Below are positions 10,877-16,428 of a stretch of 24,334 nt of DNA, piece after piece (the stretch's first letter is position 1; each line of letters starts with the position of its first letter). Made by a program: the position numbers and the translations under genes. The notes under the pieces were generated by a model. It saw only the letters and a program-made list of their open reading frames with translations, was not told where the DNA came from and made no database searches. This DNA comes from a virus, in the IMG/VR virus record IMGVR_UViG_3300005738_000034, positions 1 through 24,334 of that record; one strand, given 5' to 3'.

Positions 10877-11151
10877 AGTTTAACACCCATAGCAGCAGAA
10901 GTAACAAAGGAATAATCATCTAGTGTCCCATCTTGTAGACACTTGAGATGCCATCTAGTCATAGTAATGACTCCATCTTCAGTAGCACCAGTAATAAAGT
11001 TAGCACCATAAGGATTTCTCAATACACTGGTGTACAGACCAAACATAGTTTTCTTAACATAGAAAGTATCGTCAATCCATACCTGACCTTCAGGAATATT
11101 TTTTTCAATAGTAGGATTAGATCCTAGACTAGTTGCTAATGTAGATGTCAT
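10873..11151 (-). CDS. 92-aa conserved hypothetical protein between gp55 and gp47
   Basis: The ATG at 11151 overlaps the gp55 stop (ATGA) and its own TGA overlaps the TTG start of gp47. The product reads MTSTLATSLG, then IPEGQVWIDDTFYVKKTMFG, YGANFITGATEDGVITMTRW and a C-terminal SAAMGVKL. It is rich in short strands, with a WHLKCLQDG turn near residue 68, suggesting a small all-beta protein. No conserved catalytic motif is visible and I do not recognise the family, though its tight coupling between the late sigma factor and a recombination nuclease suggests it is co-expressed with both. Confidence 0.75.
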   Translation of the reverse strand: MTSTLATSLGSNPTIEKNIPEGQVWIDDTFYVKKTMFGLYTSVLRNPYGANFITGATEDGVITMTRWHLKCLQDGTLDDYSFVTSAAMGVKL

Positions 11152-11642
11152 CGGTTCATTCTTGTTTCAATATTTTCTTTGATGCTACCCATGTCTGAAT
11201 AAGAAGCATTCATTCCTGCCATGTCACCCTCATACTTATCTGTATGCATAATTTCTTGGTGACCTGAACGTTCTAGAATCTTTCCCTTAATCTCTAATTG
11301 CTTCTTCTCCTTCTGTATGCGTCTCAGGAAGGCGTAATAGATAATCTGGGTGAAGTATGCAAAAGGATTAGAACTCTTCTCTGGGTCGAAGTTATCGATG
11401 TATTGTAGGCAGTTCTCAATGCCATCACAGATCATGTCCTCACGGAACATGTAGTTAACAAAGTTAGGTTTGTATGACAAGTGTGTAGCAATTTTTAAAA
11501 AGCATTCACCTATGTAATTTGTGACCCTTGGTCTTGGTTTCTCTTGTTCTTTTGCCAGGATAACTTTATTACGATACTCAGTAATAGCAGCAAGAAACTC
11601 TTTGTTATTTACATAGTACTCTTTGTTTTTGGTCCTTGTCAT
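11148..11642 (-). CDS. 55: Late-transcription sigma factor (gp55)
   Basis: A 164-aa small sigma factor that replaces host sigma70 on RNA polymerase for phage late promoters. The diagnostic part is YIGECFLKIATHLSYKPNFV, the MICDGIENCLQYIDNFDP stretch and FAYFTQIIYYAFLRRIQKEKKQ, the region-2-like helices that bind core polymerase and the -10-type late element. Length matches T4 gp55 (185 aa) allowing for a shorter tail. In T4 it works with the gp45 clamp and gp33. It is headed by a near-consensus sigma70 promoter, as expected for a regulator made before late genes. Its likely targets are the TAAATA elements upstream of the virion genes in this window. Confidence 0.93.
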   Translation of the reverse strand: MTRTKNKEYYVNNKEFLAAITEYRNKVILAKEQEKPRPRVTNYIGECFLKIATHLSYKPNFVNYMFREDMICDGIENCLQYIDNFDPEKSSNPFAYFTQIIYYAFLRRIQKEKKQLEIKGKILERSGHQEIMHTDKYEGDMAGMNASYSDMGSIKENIETRMNR

Positions 11643-11665: not shown

Positions 11666-11694
11666 AGTATACTCGATTGAAGACATTTTGTCAA
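11666..11694 (-). promoter_or_regulatory. Strong sigma70-like promoter for the gp55 operon
   Basis: On the minus strand: -35 TTGACA (11694-11689), a 17-nt spacer and -10 TATACT (11671-11666), 23 nt before the gp55 ATG. The -35 is perfect and the -10 differs by one base. The predicted transcript covers gp55, the 92-aa gene, gp47, the 92-aa gene, gp46 and the oxygenase, and ends at the terminator 7175-7201. Confidence 0.85.
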
Positions 11695-11708
11695 CCTGAC
11701 CAAGGGGC

Positions 11709-11737
11709 TTGACAAAACCTCAGAAACTCAGTACAAT
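11709..11737 (+). promoter_or_regulatory. Sigma70-like promoter on the opposite strand, back-to-back with the gp55 promoter
   Basis: On the plus strand: -35 TTGACA (11709-11714), 17-nt spacer, -10 TACAAT (11732-11737, one mismatch). Its -35 box is 14 nt from the divergent -35 of the gp55 promoter. All genes to the right are on the minus strand, so the RNA would start near 11744 and run antisense to the 134-aa gene and then uvsW. No plus-strand ORF follows closely. It may make a regulatory or antisense RNA. Confidence 0.6.
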
Positions 11738-11771
11738 AACTCTGTAAGGGTTCAAAAGATAACTGTATCTA

Positions 11772-12176
11772 TTAGCTTCTCTTGAATAAAGATTCTAGAT
11801 TTTTTTTGACTTCATCTACACTACCCACATAACCATTGTTTTTTAGTTTATTGGGTTTTACATTAATTTCATCATGATCATCATCTTCTTCAGTATCTTC
11901 TATATTACTAATGTAAAAGTTCTTTATTCTTTCATCTAGTTCTGACATTGTAACTACTTGATCCATCTTGATAATGAAGATATCATCATAAGATGATCTA
12001 ATCCATTCTTTTAAAATAAAACCATCAACATTCTTTCCACGTTTATTTTTCTTATAGTTTTCAACAACCATAGGATTTTCTACTAGTAAAGAATCTTCTT
12101 CAGGTAAATAACATACCTTTGCTACAAGTTCTTCACCAGTAGATAATTTTATTGTTGTATAAAATTCTTCTTCCAT
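11772..12176 (-). CDS. 134-aa acidic protein downstream of UvsW, possible Sm-like fold
   Basis: The ATG at 12176 lies 1 nt after the uvsW stop. The N-terminal part, FYTTIKLSTGEELVAKVCYL then DSLLVENPMVV and GFILKEWI, has the strand pattern and GEE turn of small Sm/LSm-like beta-barrels; this is a fold guess only. The segment DDIFIIKMDQVVTMSELDERIKNFY follows and the C-terminal third is acidic and Lys-rich (NIEDTEEDDDHDEIN, then a VDEVKKNLESLFK helix). Similar proteins lie beside uvsW in cyanophages as I recall. It is the last gene of the uvsY-uvsW unit; no terminator is seen in the 130 nt beyond it, which instead hold the divergent promoter pair. Confidence 0.78.
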   Translation of the reverse strand: MEEEFYTTIKLSTGEELVAKVCYLPEEDSLLVENPMVVENYKKNKRGKNVDGFILKEWIRSSYDDIFIIKMDQVVTMSELDERIKNFYISNIEDTEEDDDHDEINVKPNKLKNNGYVGSVDEVKKNLESLFKRS

Positions 12177-12177
12177 A

Positions 12178-13644
12178 TTACTTTCTTAGATCTATTTTTA
12201 CTTTTTCATATTTAAAATTCTCTTCTTGATAGATCTTCACTCGTTCGTATAGATGTCTTAAAGTGTAATTAGATCTTGTTTCGTTAGAGATGTCATCAGC
12301 AATATCATAAAGTGTTGCGATGTCTTTACCTTCTCCCTTCCTCAGGACTCTACCAATTGATTGTAGGTTACGAACTCTTGACTTGGAAGGTGATGCGAAA
12401 ATAATATTGTGTAATCGTTTGATGTTAATACCAGTAGAGAAAGTTCCGTAAGAAGCAATAATAATTGCATTGCTTTCCTTCTCAGCAATTTCTCGAACTT
12501 CTTCTCTGGAATCTACATCAACTGAACCATGGACGAAGAATACTTTTCTATCGTCCTCTACCACATTATTTATCATTTCATAAAGTGGTTCACCATGCTT
12601 CTCGACATAGTTGAATAGAACCAATGTATTGCCATCTAAATCTTTAACTAGATTTTTGATGAGGTTGTTTCTCTTTTGACATGTAACGATATACTCCATC
12701 TCTGCATGGTAGTCTTCAAAGAACTGGTACTCATGCTTACACATAAGGATCTTGATTCTCAAATTAGATAAGTATCCTTTCTTAATTAGATCATCAGTCT
12801 TGGTAACCTTCTCACAGGCACCGAAGAGACCCTCCAGTACCCACTTATGAGTCTTGCTACCATCTAGTGTACCTGTAAACCCAAAGCGGTACTTAGCGTT
12901 GTGTAACTTGGTCATGATGCCTGTCAGACTCTTCGACTTAAATAGATGTGCTTCATCACCGATAACACACTCAATGTCATCAAAGTATCTTTTTGGGAAT
13001 TTATAGATTGATTGCCAAGTTGAAATAACAACTGGTTTATCCGTATTTTTATCTTTGCCCGAATAAATGGTGTGACAATAGTCTTCGGCATTCCATCCAT
13101 AGTCTTTAAAATCTTTTACCATCTGTTCTACTAGAGATGTAGTAGGAACAATTAATAGAATTTTTTTCTGTGTTGCGACATAGTATCTAACGATACTGTA
13201 GATCATTAATGACTTACCAGATCCTGTAGGGGATACAAATAATCCTCTATTGTTTTTTAGTGCTTGATAAACTGTACTATATTGATAATCTCTAGGTTGA
13301 TACTTAGAGATCTTATCCATAAAAACTTTTACACCACCACGGGATACAAAATTATTAGATTCCTGTGCGTCACCATACCATTCATTTTCTTCATACGAGA
13401 TACTATATTTTTTTTCTGATGCCCATACTTTAAGGTGATTTAATAACCCACCATAAAGTTCACCTGTACCTGGAGAGTACAAGCGAATCATTCCATCCCA
13501 ATACCTAAATCTAGGTTGTCGTTTTAAAAATTTTGCTTCTGGTAATTCAAAAGAAAAGTAATCCGAAAGTTCGTGATGAATGTGAGGTTCTGACCTGAGA
13601 GTAAGGTAAACCTCGTTCTTTTTTTTAATTACAATGTCGGACAT
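12178..13644 (-). CDS. uvsW: UvsW RNA-DNA / DNA-DNA helicase
   Basis: A 488-aa superfamily 2 helicase, near T4 UvsW (503 aa). It has a small N-terminal nucleic-acid-binding domain (about 1-110), a Q-motif-like YQPRDYQ, Walker A SPTGSGKS (138-145), a motif II DEAH box (230-233), motif III GFTGT and motif VI QSIGRVLRKG near 430-440. UvsW unwinds R-loops, remodels stalled forks and branched recombination intermediates, and in T4 drives the switch from origin-dependent to recombination-dependent replication. It follows uvsY with TAATG overlap, so both are likely made together. No missing motif is seen. Confidence 0.96.
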   Translation of the reverse strand: MSDIVIKKKNEVYLTLRSEPHIHHELSDYFSFELPEAKFLKRQPRFRYWDGMIRLYSPGTGELYGGLLNHLKVWASEKKYSISYEENEWYGDAQESNNFVSRGGVKVFMDKISKYQPRDYQYSTVYQALKNNRGLFVSPTGSGKSLMIYSIVRYYVATQKKILLIVPTTSLVEQMVKDFKDYGWNAEDYCHTIYSGKDKNTDKPVVISTWQSIYKFPKRYFDDIECVIGDEAHLFKSKSLTGIMTKLHNAKYRFGFTGTLDGSKTHKWVLEGLFGACEKVTKTDDLIKKGYLSNLRIKILMCKHEYQFFEDYHAEMEYIVTCQKRNNLIKNLVKDLDGNTLVLFNYVEKHGEPLYEMINNVVEDDRKVFFVHGSVDVDSREEVREIAEKESNAIIIASYGTFSTGINIKRLHNIIFASPSKSRVRNLQSIGRVLRKGEGKDIATLYDIADDISNETRSNYTLRHLYERVKIYQEENFKYEKVKIDLRK

Positions 13645-14117
13645 TAGTTTCCATTAATAAATCGCTCCCATTCAATAGCGTTTTTCACATGATAATTGCG
13701 AGCAGAGACTTGCTTTAGTACATGATCAAGATAATTGAGCATCATATCAATGTACTTAACTTTTGCTTCAATGTTAATGACTTCCTCATCAGCATCGAGA
13801 TAGACTCTCATCTTTTCACTTGTTTTAATACTAGACCCAAAAGGTTTTTCGGCATAAGTTTTAGCATCTGCTTCACCGCCGTAATACTCTCGTTTTTCCT
13901 TTATAGTTTTTCTCAGTTCAAATTCTAGACTAGTCTTTACCTGTGAAAGATCCGTGTAATGGTTTAAGTATTTATTATGCAAGAAAGGGATCTCCATGGA
14001 GATCTTTCCTAGGTCGGTAGTATATTGTTTGTTACGAAATTCATGTTCAACGTAACTATCTTCTTTCCAATCAGTTTTTATACGTTCAAAAAGATTATGT
14101 AGTTTCTCAAAATTCAT
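13644..14117 (-). CDS. uvsY: UvsY recombination mediator
   Basis: A 157-aa protein homologous to T4 UvsY (137 aa), which loads the UvsX recombinase on gp32-coated single-stranded DNA. The match is clearest in the C-terminal half: TSEKMRVYLDADEEVINIEA, then MLNYLDHVLKQVSARNYHVKNAIEWERFINGN, which parallels T4's SEMKTVLSADKDV...LDAIKSRGFAIKHIQDMRAFEAGK. REYYGGEADAKTY corresponds to the T4 DYYSGRGD segment. It overlaps the upstream tail gene by 4 nt (ATGA) and uvsW by one base, linking a structural gene and a recombination pair in one late transcript. Confidence 0.93.
   Translation of the reverse strand: MNFEKLHNLFERIKTDWKEDSYVEHEFRNKQYTTDLGKISMEIPFLHNKYLNHYTDLSQVKTSLEFELRKTIKEKREYYGGEADAKTYAEKPFGSSIKTSEKMRVYLDADEEVINIEAKVKYIDMMLNYLDHVLKQVSARNYHVKNAIEWERFINGN
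13989..14004. repeat. 16-bp perfect palindrome inside uvsY
   Basis: GATCTCCATGGAGATC reads the same on both strands and carries a GATC at each end; with one bulged base the symmetry extends to GAAAG/CTTTC. It lies within the uvsY coding sequence. No function can be assigned; chance or codon constraint is possible. Confidence 0.6.
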
Positions 14118-14780: not shown

Positions 14781-14944
14781 TGTCTGTATTCTTGTAATAC
14801 TTTAAGGACTTCATTATAGGCATAATGAGCACCGTCTGTCCATTGTCCAGTTTTAGATGTATGCTTACTGCTTTCGTAAAGTTCTGTCTTCAATTTATAT
14901 AGTCTTGCCAACATATCAACTTTCAGCATTGTGCTTCTAGGCAT
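14777..14944 (-). CDS. 55-aa hypothetical protein (or 50 aa from an internal ATG)
   Basis: The reading frame runs from ATG 14944 (MPRSTMLKVDMLARLYKLKT) to TGA 14779-14777, ending VLKVLQEYRQ. A second in-frame ATG at 14929 gives 50 residues; neither has a clear Shine-Dalgarno, and I list the longer form. It is mostly helical, with a GQWTDGAHYAYNEVLKVL segment. The gene begins just beyond the capsid terminator, with an ATTAAATA late element 21 nt upstream of the ATG, and overlaps the next small gene by 4 nt. Function unknown. Confidence 0.65.
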   Translation of the reverse strand: MPRSTMLKVDMLARLYKLKTELYESSKHTSKTGQWTDGAHYAYNEVLKVLQEYRQ

Positions 14945-14973: not shown

Positions 14974-15001
14974 AAAAAAGGGGACCCCGTTGGGATCCCC
15001 T
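14974..15001 (-). terminator. Rho-independent terminator of the capsid gene
   Basis: Read on the minus strand: stem arms GGGGATCCC and GGGGTCCCC with a small AAC loop region (15000-14980), followed by a run of T (14979-14974). It lies about 20 nt past the gp23 stop and is expected to end the abundant capsid mRNA. Confidence 0.88.
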
Positions 15002-15021: not shown

Positions 15022-16428
15022 TCACATGAGGTTCGTAACTTGTACTCTTCTGTAGTACATGTTGGTGTTGGCGGTGAGAGTCTCTCCGTCAGGTGTTCCG
15101 TTGTACAATCCGTTAGTGGTAACGAAAGGATTGCTGACCATGCCGTAACGAGTCTTGAAACCAATTTTTGGTTGGAAGTTGTTAGGATCGATCGAGCGAA
15201 CCATTTGAAGGGGAACGTATGGGCAGTAGAATAGTCCTGCGTCATAAGGTGAGGTTCCCTTGTAACCTACGACATAGTAGTGCTTGTCGCTAAGGTTAGC
15301 AGAGTAAGGATCAACATAGACCTTGATGCGACCATTGATGGTGCCAACAGCGAGGTTACCAGTGTCATCAACTTCACCGATGGAAGGACCACCAGCACCG
15401 CTGAGTCCGCTGCTGTAGTCAAGTACGCCTGCCATTGCAAGTGCAGAAGCAACGTCAGCAGAACAGATCAGGAAGTTGCCCTTTCCTCTACGAGTGTCTT
15501 GTGCAATTGCATTGCAGTCGCGCTCGATTTGGAAAAGAAGTCCTTTGAATTTCTCAACGGACCAACGACCATTGCTGTCAACGTCAAGGTCAAAGATACC
15601 AGCGTTAGCAACGTTGTTTGCAGCACCAGGCTTAGCAACGCTGTATACGCGACGGACGACTTCGCGGTTGATTTCTGCAAGGACTTCGCTAGACAAGATG
15701 TTAGCAAGTTCCTGCTCAGCATCAAGACCATGAATTGCCTTAAGGTCTTGTGCCAGTTCCAAGGTGTATTCTGCTTTCAAAGCTCTGGACTTAGCAGTCA
15801 CAGAAGTCTTCTCAATGCTGAATGACATCTCGCGGAAGAGTTTGCCAGCATCGCCAGCTTGCTCTAGGTTCTCGCGAGAGAATCCTTGGGGAACCTCGTA
15901 GGTGCCAGGTGAAGAATCGTTGAGGAGAGCAGGGTTGTTACCTTCTGCGTCGCCACCAACACCAGCGCCCGTTCTAGGGGTGTAAGCACCAGCACTAGCG
16001 TCGAGACCAGCAGTGAAGCCAGCGTCGGGCTCGTTGAACAATGCTTCTTCGCCGCCTTGGTTCTCGTAGCGTGAACGCATTGCGAAGATGAGTCCAGTAG
16101 GACCGCTCATGGGTTGAACGCCACAAACGTCATATGCCATCAAGTTAGGCATTGCGCGGCGAACAAGACTGATCAGTACAGGGTCGAAACCTGCCAAACC
16201 AGCAGTGTTAGCAGATCCGAGTGCCGAACCACCGGGGGAGATGGTGCCAGCGCCGAGGCTGTTGACTGCTACTTCATTAAGCATTCCACGCTCTTCGCGT
16301 AGGAAGCGTTCTTGGTTTTCCAGGAGGACGGAGGTCACTGCCTTCTTGTAACGATCAGCAATAGGATTTGCCATTTCGTTATTGAGAACAGGTGACCACT
16401 TTTCCTGGAGATGTTCTGCGTTAAACAT
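15022..16428 (-). CDS. 23: Major capsid protein (gp23)
   Basis: A 468-aa HK97-fold capsid precursor that assembles around the gp22 scaffold and is trimmed by gp21. The centre is diagnostic: LVRRAMPNLMAYDVCGVQPM followed by SGPTGLIFAMRSRY, as in T4 gp23, and the end reads YYRRVQVTNLM. T4 gp21 cuts after Glu in (L/I)xE; here LNE at 50-52 (before VAV) is a good candidate for the N-terminal cut, with LRE (43-45) an alternative. It is shorter than T4 gp23 (521 aa). The start has SD GGAG 6 nt upstream and a CTAAATA late element 39 nt upstream. The gene is visibly more GC-rich than gp46 or the small genes, fitting high expression. Confidence 0.98.
   Translation of the reverse strand: MFNAEHLQEKWSPVLNNEMANPIADRYKKAVTSVLLENQERFLREERGMLNEVAVNSLGAGTISPGGSALGSANTAGLAGFDPVLISLVRRAMPNLMAYDVCGVQPMSGPTGLIFAMRSRYENQGGEEALFNEPDAGFTAGLDASAGAYTPRTGAGVGGDAEGNNPALLNDSSPGTYEVPQGFSRENLEQAGDAGKLFREMSFSIEKTSVTAKSRALKAEYTLELAQDLKAIHGLDAEQELANILSSEVLAEINREVVRRVYSVAKPGAANNVANAGIFDLDVDSNGRWSVEKFKGLLFQIERDCNAIAQDTRRGKGNFLICSADVASALAMAGVLDYSSGLSGAGGPSIGEVDDTGNLAVGTINGRIKVYVDPYSANLSDKHYYVVGYKGTSPYDAGLFYCPYVPLQMVRSIDPNNFQPKIGFKTRYGMVSNPFVTTNGLYNGTPDGETLTANTNMYYRRVQVTNLM

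Follow-up and report, generated by a model that had tools for sequence, protein, structure and literature searches.

The window, i.e., the whole stretch of 24,334 nucleotides analysed here, is a fragment of a T4-like cyanophage whose nearest annotated relatives are S-RIM44 and Syn1 (~83% DNA identity). Beside the gene for the late sigma factor gp55 it carries two promoters placed back to back, one of which points away from gp55, as well as a feature that the initial annotation had missed, a dyad over the predicted start site of this antisense promoter. In line with the initial annotation, the main genes to the right of gp55 lie on the minus strand. The features of the locus are as follows.

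11148-11642, minus strand: gp55, late sigma factor (phrog_234, E 5.6e-68)
11666-11671, minus strand: gp55 promoter, -10 box TATACT, 17-nt spacer (consensus scan; a site of the relaxed pattern in 71/80 relatives)
11689-11694, minus strand: gp55 promoter, -35 box TTGACA (consensus scan)
11686-11717: 9-nt inverted pair, TTTTGTCAA at 11686-11694 and TTGACAAAA at 11709-11717, made up of the -35 boxes and their neighbours
11709-11714, plus strand: antisense promoter, -35 box TTGACA (TTGAC invariant in 80 IMG/VR relatives)
11732-11737, plus strand: antisense promoter, -10 box TACAAT, 17 nt from the -35 box (initial TA and final T as well as the 17-nt spacing kept in 80/80 relatives)
11738-11752, plus strand: imperfect dyad AACTCTGTAAGGGTT, 15 nt, directly after the -10 box and straddling the predicted +1; proposed operator, phage-specific
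11744, plus strand: predicted transcription start, the G of TGT, 7 nt past the -10 box (from the spacing rule and a TG that is invariant in 81/81 loci)
11772-12176, minus strand: gene of a 134-aa Sm-like protein (T4-GC 139, annotated 'methylamine utilization'; PF16243 Sm_like E 2.2e-9, phrog_471)
12178-13644, minus strand: uvsW helicase gene (PF21241 UvsW_N and helicase domains, phrog_16)
13644-14117, minus strand: uvsY

Each of the two promoters matches the consensus at 11 of 12 positions, and the two are among only four such sites in the 6 kb scanned. They lie exactly where the initial annotation had placed them, TTGACA-17-TACAAT on the plus strand at 11709-11737 and TTGACA-17-TATACT on the minus strand at 11694-11666. 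With its near-consensus hexamers and a spacing within 16-18 nt, the plus-strand promoter is of the sigma70 type. It had further been pointed out that the -35 boxes form an inverted pair 14 nt apart, which is true in the window, where the pair extends to 9 nt. We rejected this pair as the key feature of the locus because the gap varies among relatives; it is 2-7 nt in 60/71 of them and 14 nt in the window.

The 134-aa protein encoded directly opposite the predicted antisense transcript matches the Pfam family Sm_like (PF16243) above the curated cut-off, and as judged from its sequence it is an Sm-like domain protein, possibly RNA-binding, and no methylamine enzyme; a search for sequence matches among solved structures found none. 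Elsewhere in the window, a strong intrinsic terminator on the minus strand (14980-15000; nine pairs, seven of them G-C, followed by TTTTTTATTA) lies just beyond the stop of a 468-aa gene at 15022-16428, which by synteny with S-PM2 and Syn1 is probably gp23. A near-consensus minus-strand promoter (14813-14842, TGGACA-18-TATAAT, 11/12) is found between this probable gp23 and a gp3-like gene. An exact match to the late-promoter sequence TATAAATA is absent from both strands of the window, where chance alone would give about two, despite the presence of late-type genes, and the late promoters of the window may deviate from the T4 form. An Rfam search of the window gave no match.

The antisense promoter is conserved far beyond chance. 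Among 80 IMG/VR loci that were picked by their gp55 protein only, all 80 carry TTGAC[A/G]-17-TAnnnT upstream of gp55 and pointing away from it, whereas the same pattern occurs elsewhere in these loci at 0.0116 per 170-nt stretch. This bears out the initial annotation in its view that a chance match is unlikely, and the check that it had proposed, conservation of the plus-strand -35/-10 spacing among relatives, came out strongly positive with 17 nt in 80/80. Conservation is looser for the promoter of gp55 itself, which was recognised by a relaxed pattern in 71/80. Named phages of most genera examined carry the antisense promoter as well (Syn9, S-CAM9, S-RIM8, S-SSM5, ACG-2014d, P-SSM7, S-RIM2, P-SSM2, P-SSM4, S-SM2, S-ShM2, S-CAM3, S-RSM4, S-RIM32, S-PM2 and Syn1). 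In ACG-2014f it is weaker and degenerate (TTGCCA-17-TATAAT) and the dyad is shortened; P-HM2 has the promoter and no recognisable dyad at either gp55 or phrog_718, and in S-N03 neither promoter nor dyad was found. The arrangement of two sigma70-type promoters back to back, one of them antisense, is thus conserved across the Kyanoviridae, and judged by this conservation the plus-strand promoter is a genuine promoter of the whole family.

Directly after the -10 box, nearly all of the 80 loci carry the dyad, whose consensus AACnnTGTnnnRGGTT has the predicted +1 at its centre. From phage to phage, its two arms change together (AACTCT/AGGGTT, AACCTT/GAGGTT, AACAGT/GCTGTT, AACTGT/GCAGTT and others). 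In 28 distinct dyad 15-mers, 86.9% of the cells form pairs as compared to 82.2% after shuffling, and the covariation score is 0.290 (0.211 after shuffling), with 1 of 500 shuffles as high; slid versions of the dyad all score lower. Since related sequences weaken such shuffle controls, we regard the covariation by itself as moderate evidence. The dyad is imperfect, and its length varies between 14 and 16 nt. It overlaps the predicted start site as the operator of a homodimeric phage repressor would, though the symmetry is lost in ACG-2014d, where the sequence is still common to the copies in that genome. For the main dyad variant, which was the one searched, no cyanobacterial match was found in genome contigs, and a host origin of the element was rejected on this ground.

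The record comprises the 24-kb window alone, and sister copies were therefore sought in the genomes of relatives. A position-weight scan over six complete genomes, each with 1300-1900 promoter-like candidates, found the combination of promoter and dyad 2, 2, 2, 3, 2 and 3 times, that is, one or two copies beyond the one at gp55 and essentially nothing else (the second copy of P-SSM7 surfaced only in a wider scan). The outcome was alike when 19 more records were searched with a sequence model. The sister copies are sense promoters of early-type genes. They precede phrog_507 (T4-GC 49) in S-PM2, and in Syn1 and S-RIM32 with phrog_507 as the second gene; they drive CP12 in S-SSM5 and cpeT in S-RIM2, within cp12/cpeT clusters; and they stand before phrog_718 (~70 aa) in Syn9, S-RIM2, S-RIM8, ACG-2014d, S-ShM2 and S-SSM5, with a diverged copy at phrog_718 in P-SSM7. 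The copy antisense to the genes beside gp55 is the most constant member of this class. Neither the sister copies nor the Sm-like nature of the 134-aa product had been noticed in the initial annotation.

The prediction that phrog_718 should be preceded by a copy was tested once the first copies had been found. It came true in S-SSM5, where the copy, with its 18-nt spacer, had escaped the first scan and where the dyad is identical to that of the antisense copy, and roughly so in P-SSM7; no copy was seen at phrog_718 in P-HM2, and in P-SSM4 the nearest one lies ~1.1 kb upstream. phrog_718 is a small early-type family with the motif IYDLE..VDG.R, to which Syn9 gp88 belongs, and it is repeatedly the first gene after a sister copy. 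In several phages, the start codon of phrog_718 or of other genes of the class is only ~13-20 nt past the predicted +1.

The copies within one genome share their dyad. Over 12 genomes, the dyad of the antisense copy is on average 2.40 edits away from the sense copies that accompany it in its genome; for other genomes the figures are 5.35 to the sense and 5.15 to the antisense copies (p=0.0002 by permutation). This agreement was not built in, because the model by which the copies were found spanned phages. It is small in the -35/-10 spacer (7.67 versus 8.70, p=0.012), and the sequence downstream of the copies differs almost as much as between genomes. S-ShM2 has a 14-nt dyad together with the -10 variant TAAACT in all three copies, and S-CAM9 a TGCC variant in all three; AACAATGTCAGAT occurs in two copies of ACG-2014d and ACCTTTGT in two copies of S-SM2, and the two copies of S-SSM5 are identical over 18 nt. 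In S-RIM8, P-SSM4 and S-RSM4 the copies agree only in part. The genomes thus carry several sites (2-3 copies) of one genome-specific sequence, as would be expected of the operators of a repressor. Although WH8102 is the recorded host of both S-SSM5 and S-ShM2, their dyads differ, which argues against a host factor and makes a phage-encoded one the simplest cause. A search for DNA-binding families among the proteins encoded beside the sister copies gave no match.

The explanation that we favour, with a probability of about one half for the whole of it, combines a host-sigma70 early promoter class, a phage-specific start-site dyad, a repressor and competition with gp55. The plus-strand promoter would be an early promoter read by the host sigma70 RNA polymerase and would belong to a small class, usually of two or three copies per genome, with a dyad over the start site. 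This dyad would most likely be the binding site of a putative phage-encoded DNA-binding factor, most likely a repressor that shuts the promoters of the class off; a repressor seems more plausible than an activator, given that the boxes are close to the consensus and that the predicted +1 lies under the dyad. At gp55, the product of the antisense promoter would be a predicted non-coding RNA that enters the Sm-like/uvsW unit from its 3′ end. The -35 boxes of this promoter and of the gp55 promoter are neighbours, and the two would compete for RNA polymerase. Given the usual footprint of RNA polymerase, promoters this close could not be occupied together, and with a gap of 2-7 nt between the -35 boxes in most of the relatives the two should compete. 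While on, the antisense promoter should hold gp55 down and counteract transcription that comes in from the direction of uvsW. Binding of the factor would then release both, which would help the switch from early to late transcription.

The best of the alternatives, which we nevertheless consider unlikely, is that the promoter makes a dedicated cis-antisense RNA by which the Sm-like/uvsW mRNA is repressed early in infection, or which delimits the late transcript coming the other way, with the dyad as a side feature. Wherever the promoter occurs, it faces one and the same pair of genes in antisense, and it is located where the uvsW side meets gp55/gp47/gp46; by its orientation, the predicted transcript would be antisense to the Sm-like gene and, if long, to uvsW. 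However, a conserved terminator or RNA structure, by which a cis-antisense RNA gene would be recognised, was not found: terminator-like sites downstream occur in 58/81 loci as compared to 44 in shuffles and are scattered, with no conserved position, and the fold of the predicted transcript is unremarkable (z-scores -0.02 and 0.64). Synonymous constraint in the overlapped Sm-like gene is flat save for the last few codons. There is no conserved plus-strand ORF after the promoter either (fewer than 10 codons in 47/81 loci, and no ORF common across loci), which led us to reject a promoter for a small plus-strand early gene; judged from sequence, the transcript would be non-coding. These findings on ORF, terminator, fold and synonymous constraint make it more likely that the act of transcription or the competition with gp55 is what matters, and less so a defined RNA. 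Furthermore, a dedicated antisense RNA would not account for the sister copies, which are sense promoters of ordinary early genes. Control of uvsW by the predicted RNA is a possibility, and the small family-wide early regulon with its phage-specific start-site dyad is the stronger finding.

Somewhat less probable still, in our estimate, is that the dyad acts as RNA or as a single strand, either as a hairpin at or near the 5′ end of the transcript (for stability, or as the site of a phage RNA-binding protein) or as a non-template-strand hairpin with an effect on promoter escape. The covariation of the arms, often with G-T pairs on the transcript strand, would fit a hairpin, and so would a loop length that differs among close relatives (15 versus 16 nt), since hairpins tolerate such differences. 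On the other hand, a normal distance between -10 box and +1 puts the 5′ arm upstream of the transcript, and the fold of the region is unremarkable. Moreover, a hairpin could form from different sequences at two loci in a genome, whereas the sequences seen there are alike; a hairpin alone was rejected because it leaves the agreement within genomes unexplained. This agreement could in principle also arise without any shared factor, by short-tract gene conversion or the recent spread of a 20-25 bp module in each genome, and the -10 variant TAAACT that the S-ShM2 copies have in common would be in line with this; but the agreement is largely confined to the dyad, with spacer and downstream sequence nearly as different as between genomes, and we judge this explanation improbable. 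The least credible reading is that of a replication-origin transcript, i.e., an R-loop primer as at the origins of T4, which rely on a promoter and an R-loop that is unwound by UvsW: a conserved promoter with a predicted non-coding transcript next to uvsW would suit it, but there is no turning point of G+C skew at the site in six genomes, and the same element drives ordinary early genes.

It is instructive to compare the favoured reading, a repressed early promoter class, with known systems. Repressor-operator switches such as lambda OR and those of P2 and 186 have close divergent promoters that exclude each other and a dyad over one start. The arrangement at gp55 resembles them in its divergent promoters, which are near enough to shut each other out, its start-site dyad and the recurrence of the same type of site at a few promoters. 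It differs from them in that the phage is lytic, the repressor is putative, each promoter has a single imperfect dyad, and the locus is that of a late-sigma gene, not a lysogeny switch.

The early promoters of T4-like cyanophages are sigma70-like (PMC2984593), and the class described here shares with them the TTGACA and TATAAT-like boxes, the predicted use of unmodified host RNA polymerase and the association with early genes. Unlike these early promoters in general, the subset adds a phage-specific dyad over the +1, is limited to two or three copies per genome, and always has one copy in antisense orientation beside gp55. With respect to antisense RNA, the initial annotation had drawn a parallel to CfrI, the first antisense RNA of T4-like phages, at psbA of S-PM2 (PMC2984593, PMC5931967). 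The parallel holds in so far as both are cases of antisense transcription in marine T4-like cyanophages, here predicted from sequence, and nothing further is shared: CfrI is an expressed RNA of ~225 nt that links psbA and a homing endonuclease gene, whereas the gp55 antisense RNA is a prediction at another locus, where the conserved part is the promoter and the start site and not the body of the RNA. In the literature searched, we did not find the promoter-dyad element or its regulon described, though the start-site map of Syn9 may already list the antisense start.

T4-like cyanophages lack the MotA, AsiA and Alt/Mod proteins, and the timing of their genes is still an open question (PMC2984593). 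In this context, it is conceivable, if at present rather doubtful, that an undescribed and fast-coevolving repressor-operator circuit of the Kyanoviridae flips the exclusive divergent promoters at gp55 from antisense to late-sigma transcription, and thereby times the early-to-late switch in the absence of the MotA/AsiA middle control of T4. The regulon gives a concrete handle on gene timing in cyanophages, as it predicts a single phage regulator and names the DNA with which to fish for it. The strong antisense promoter beside the late-sigma gene, with a phage-specific start-site mark that recurs at just one or two further early promoters of the genome, suggests an undescribed viral control circuit.
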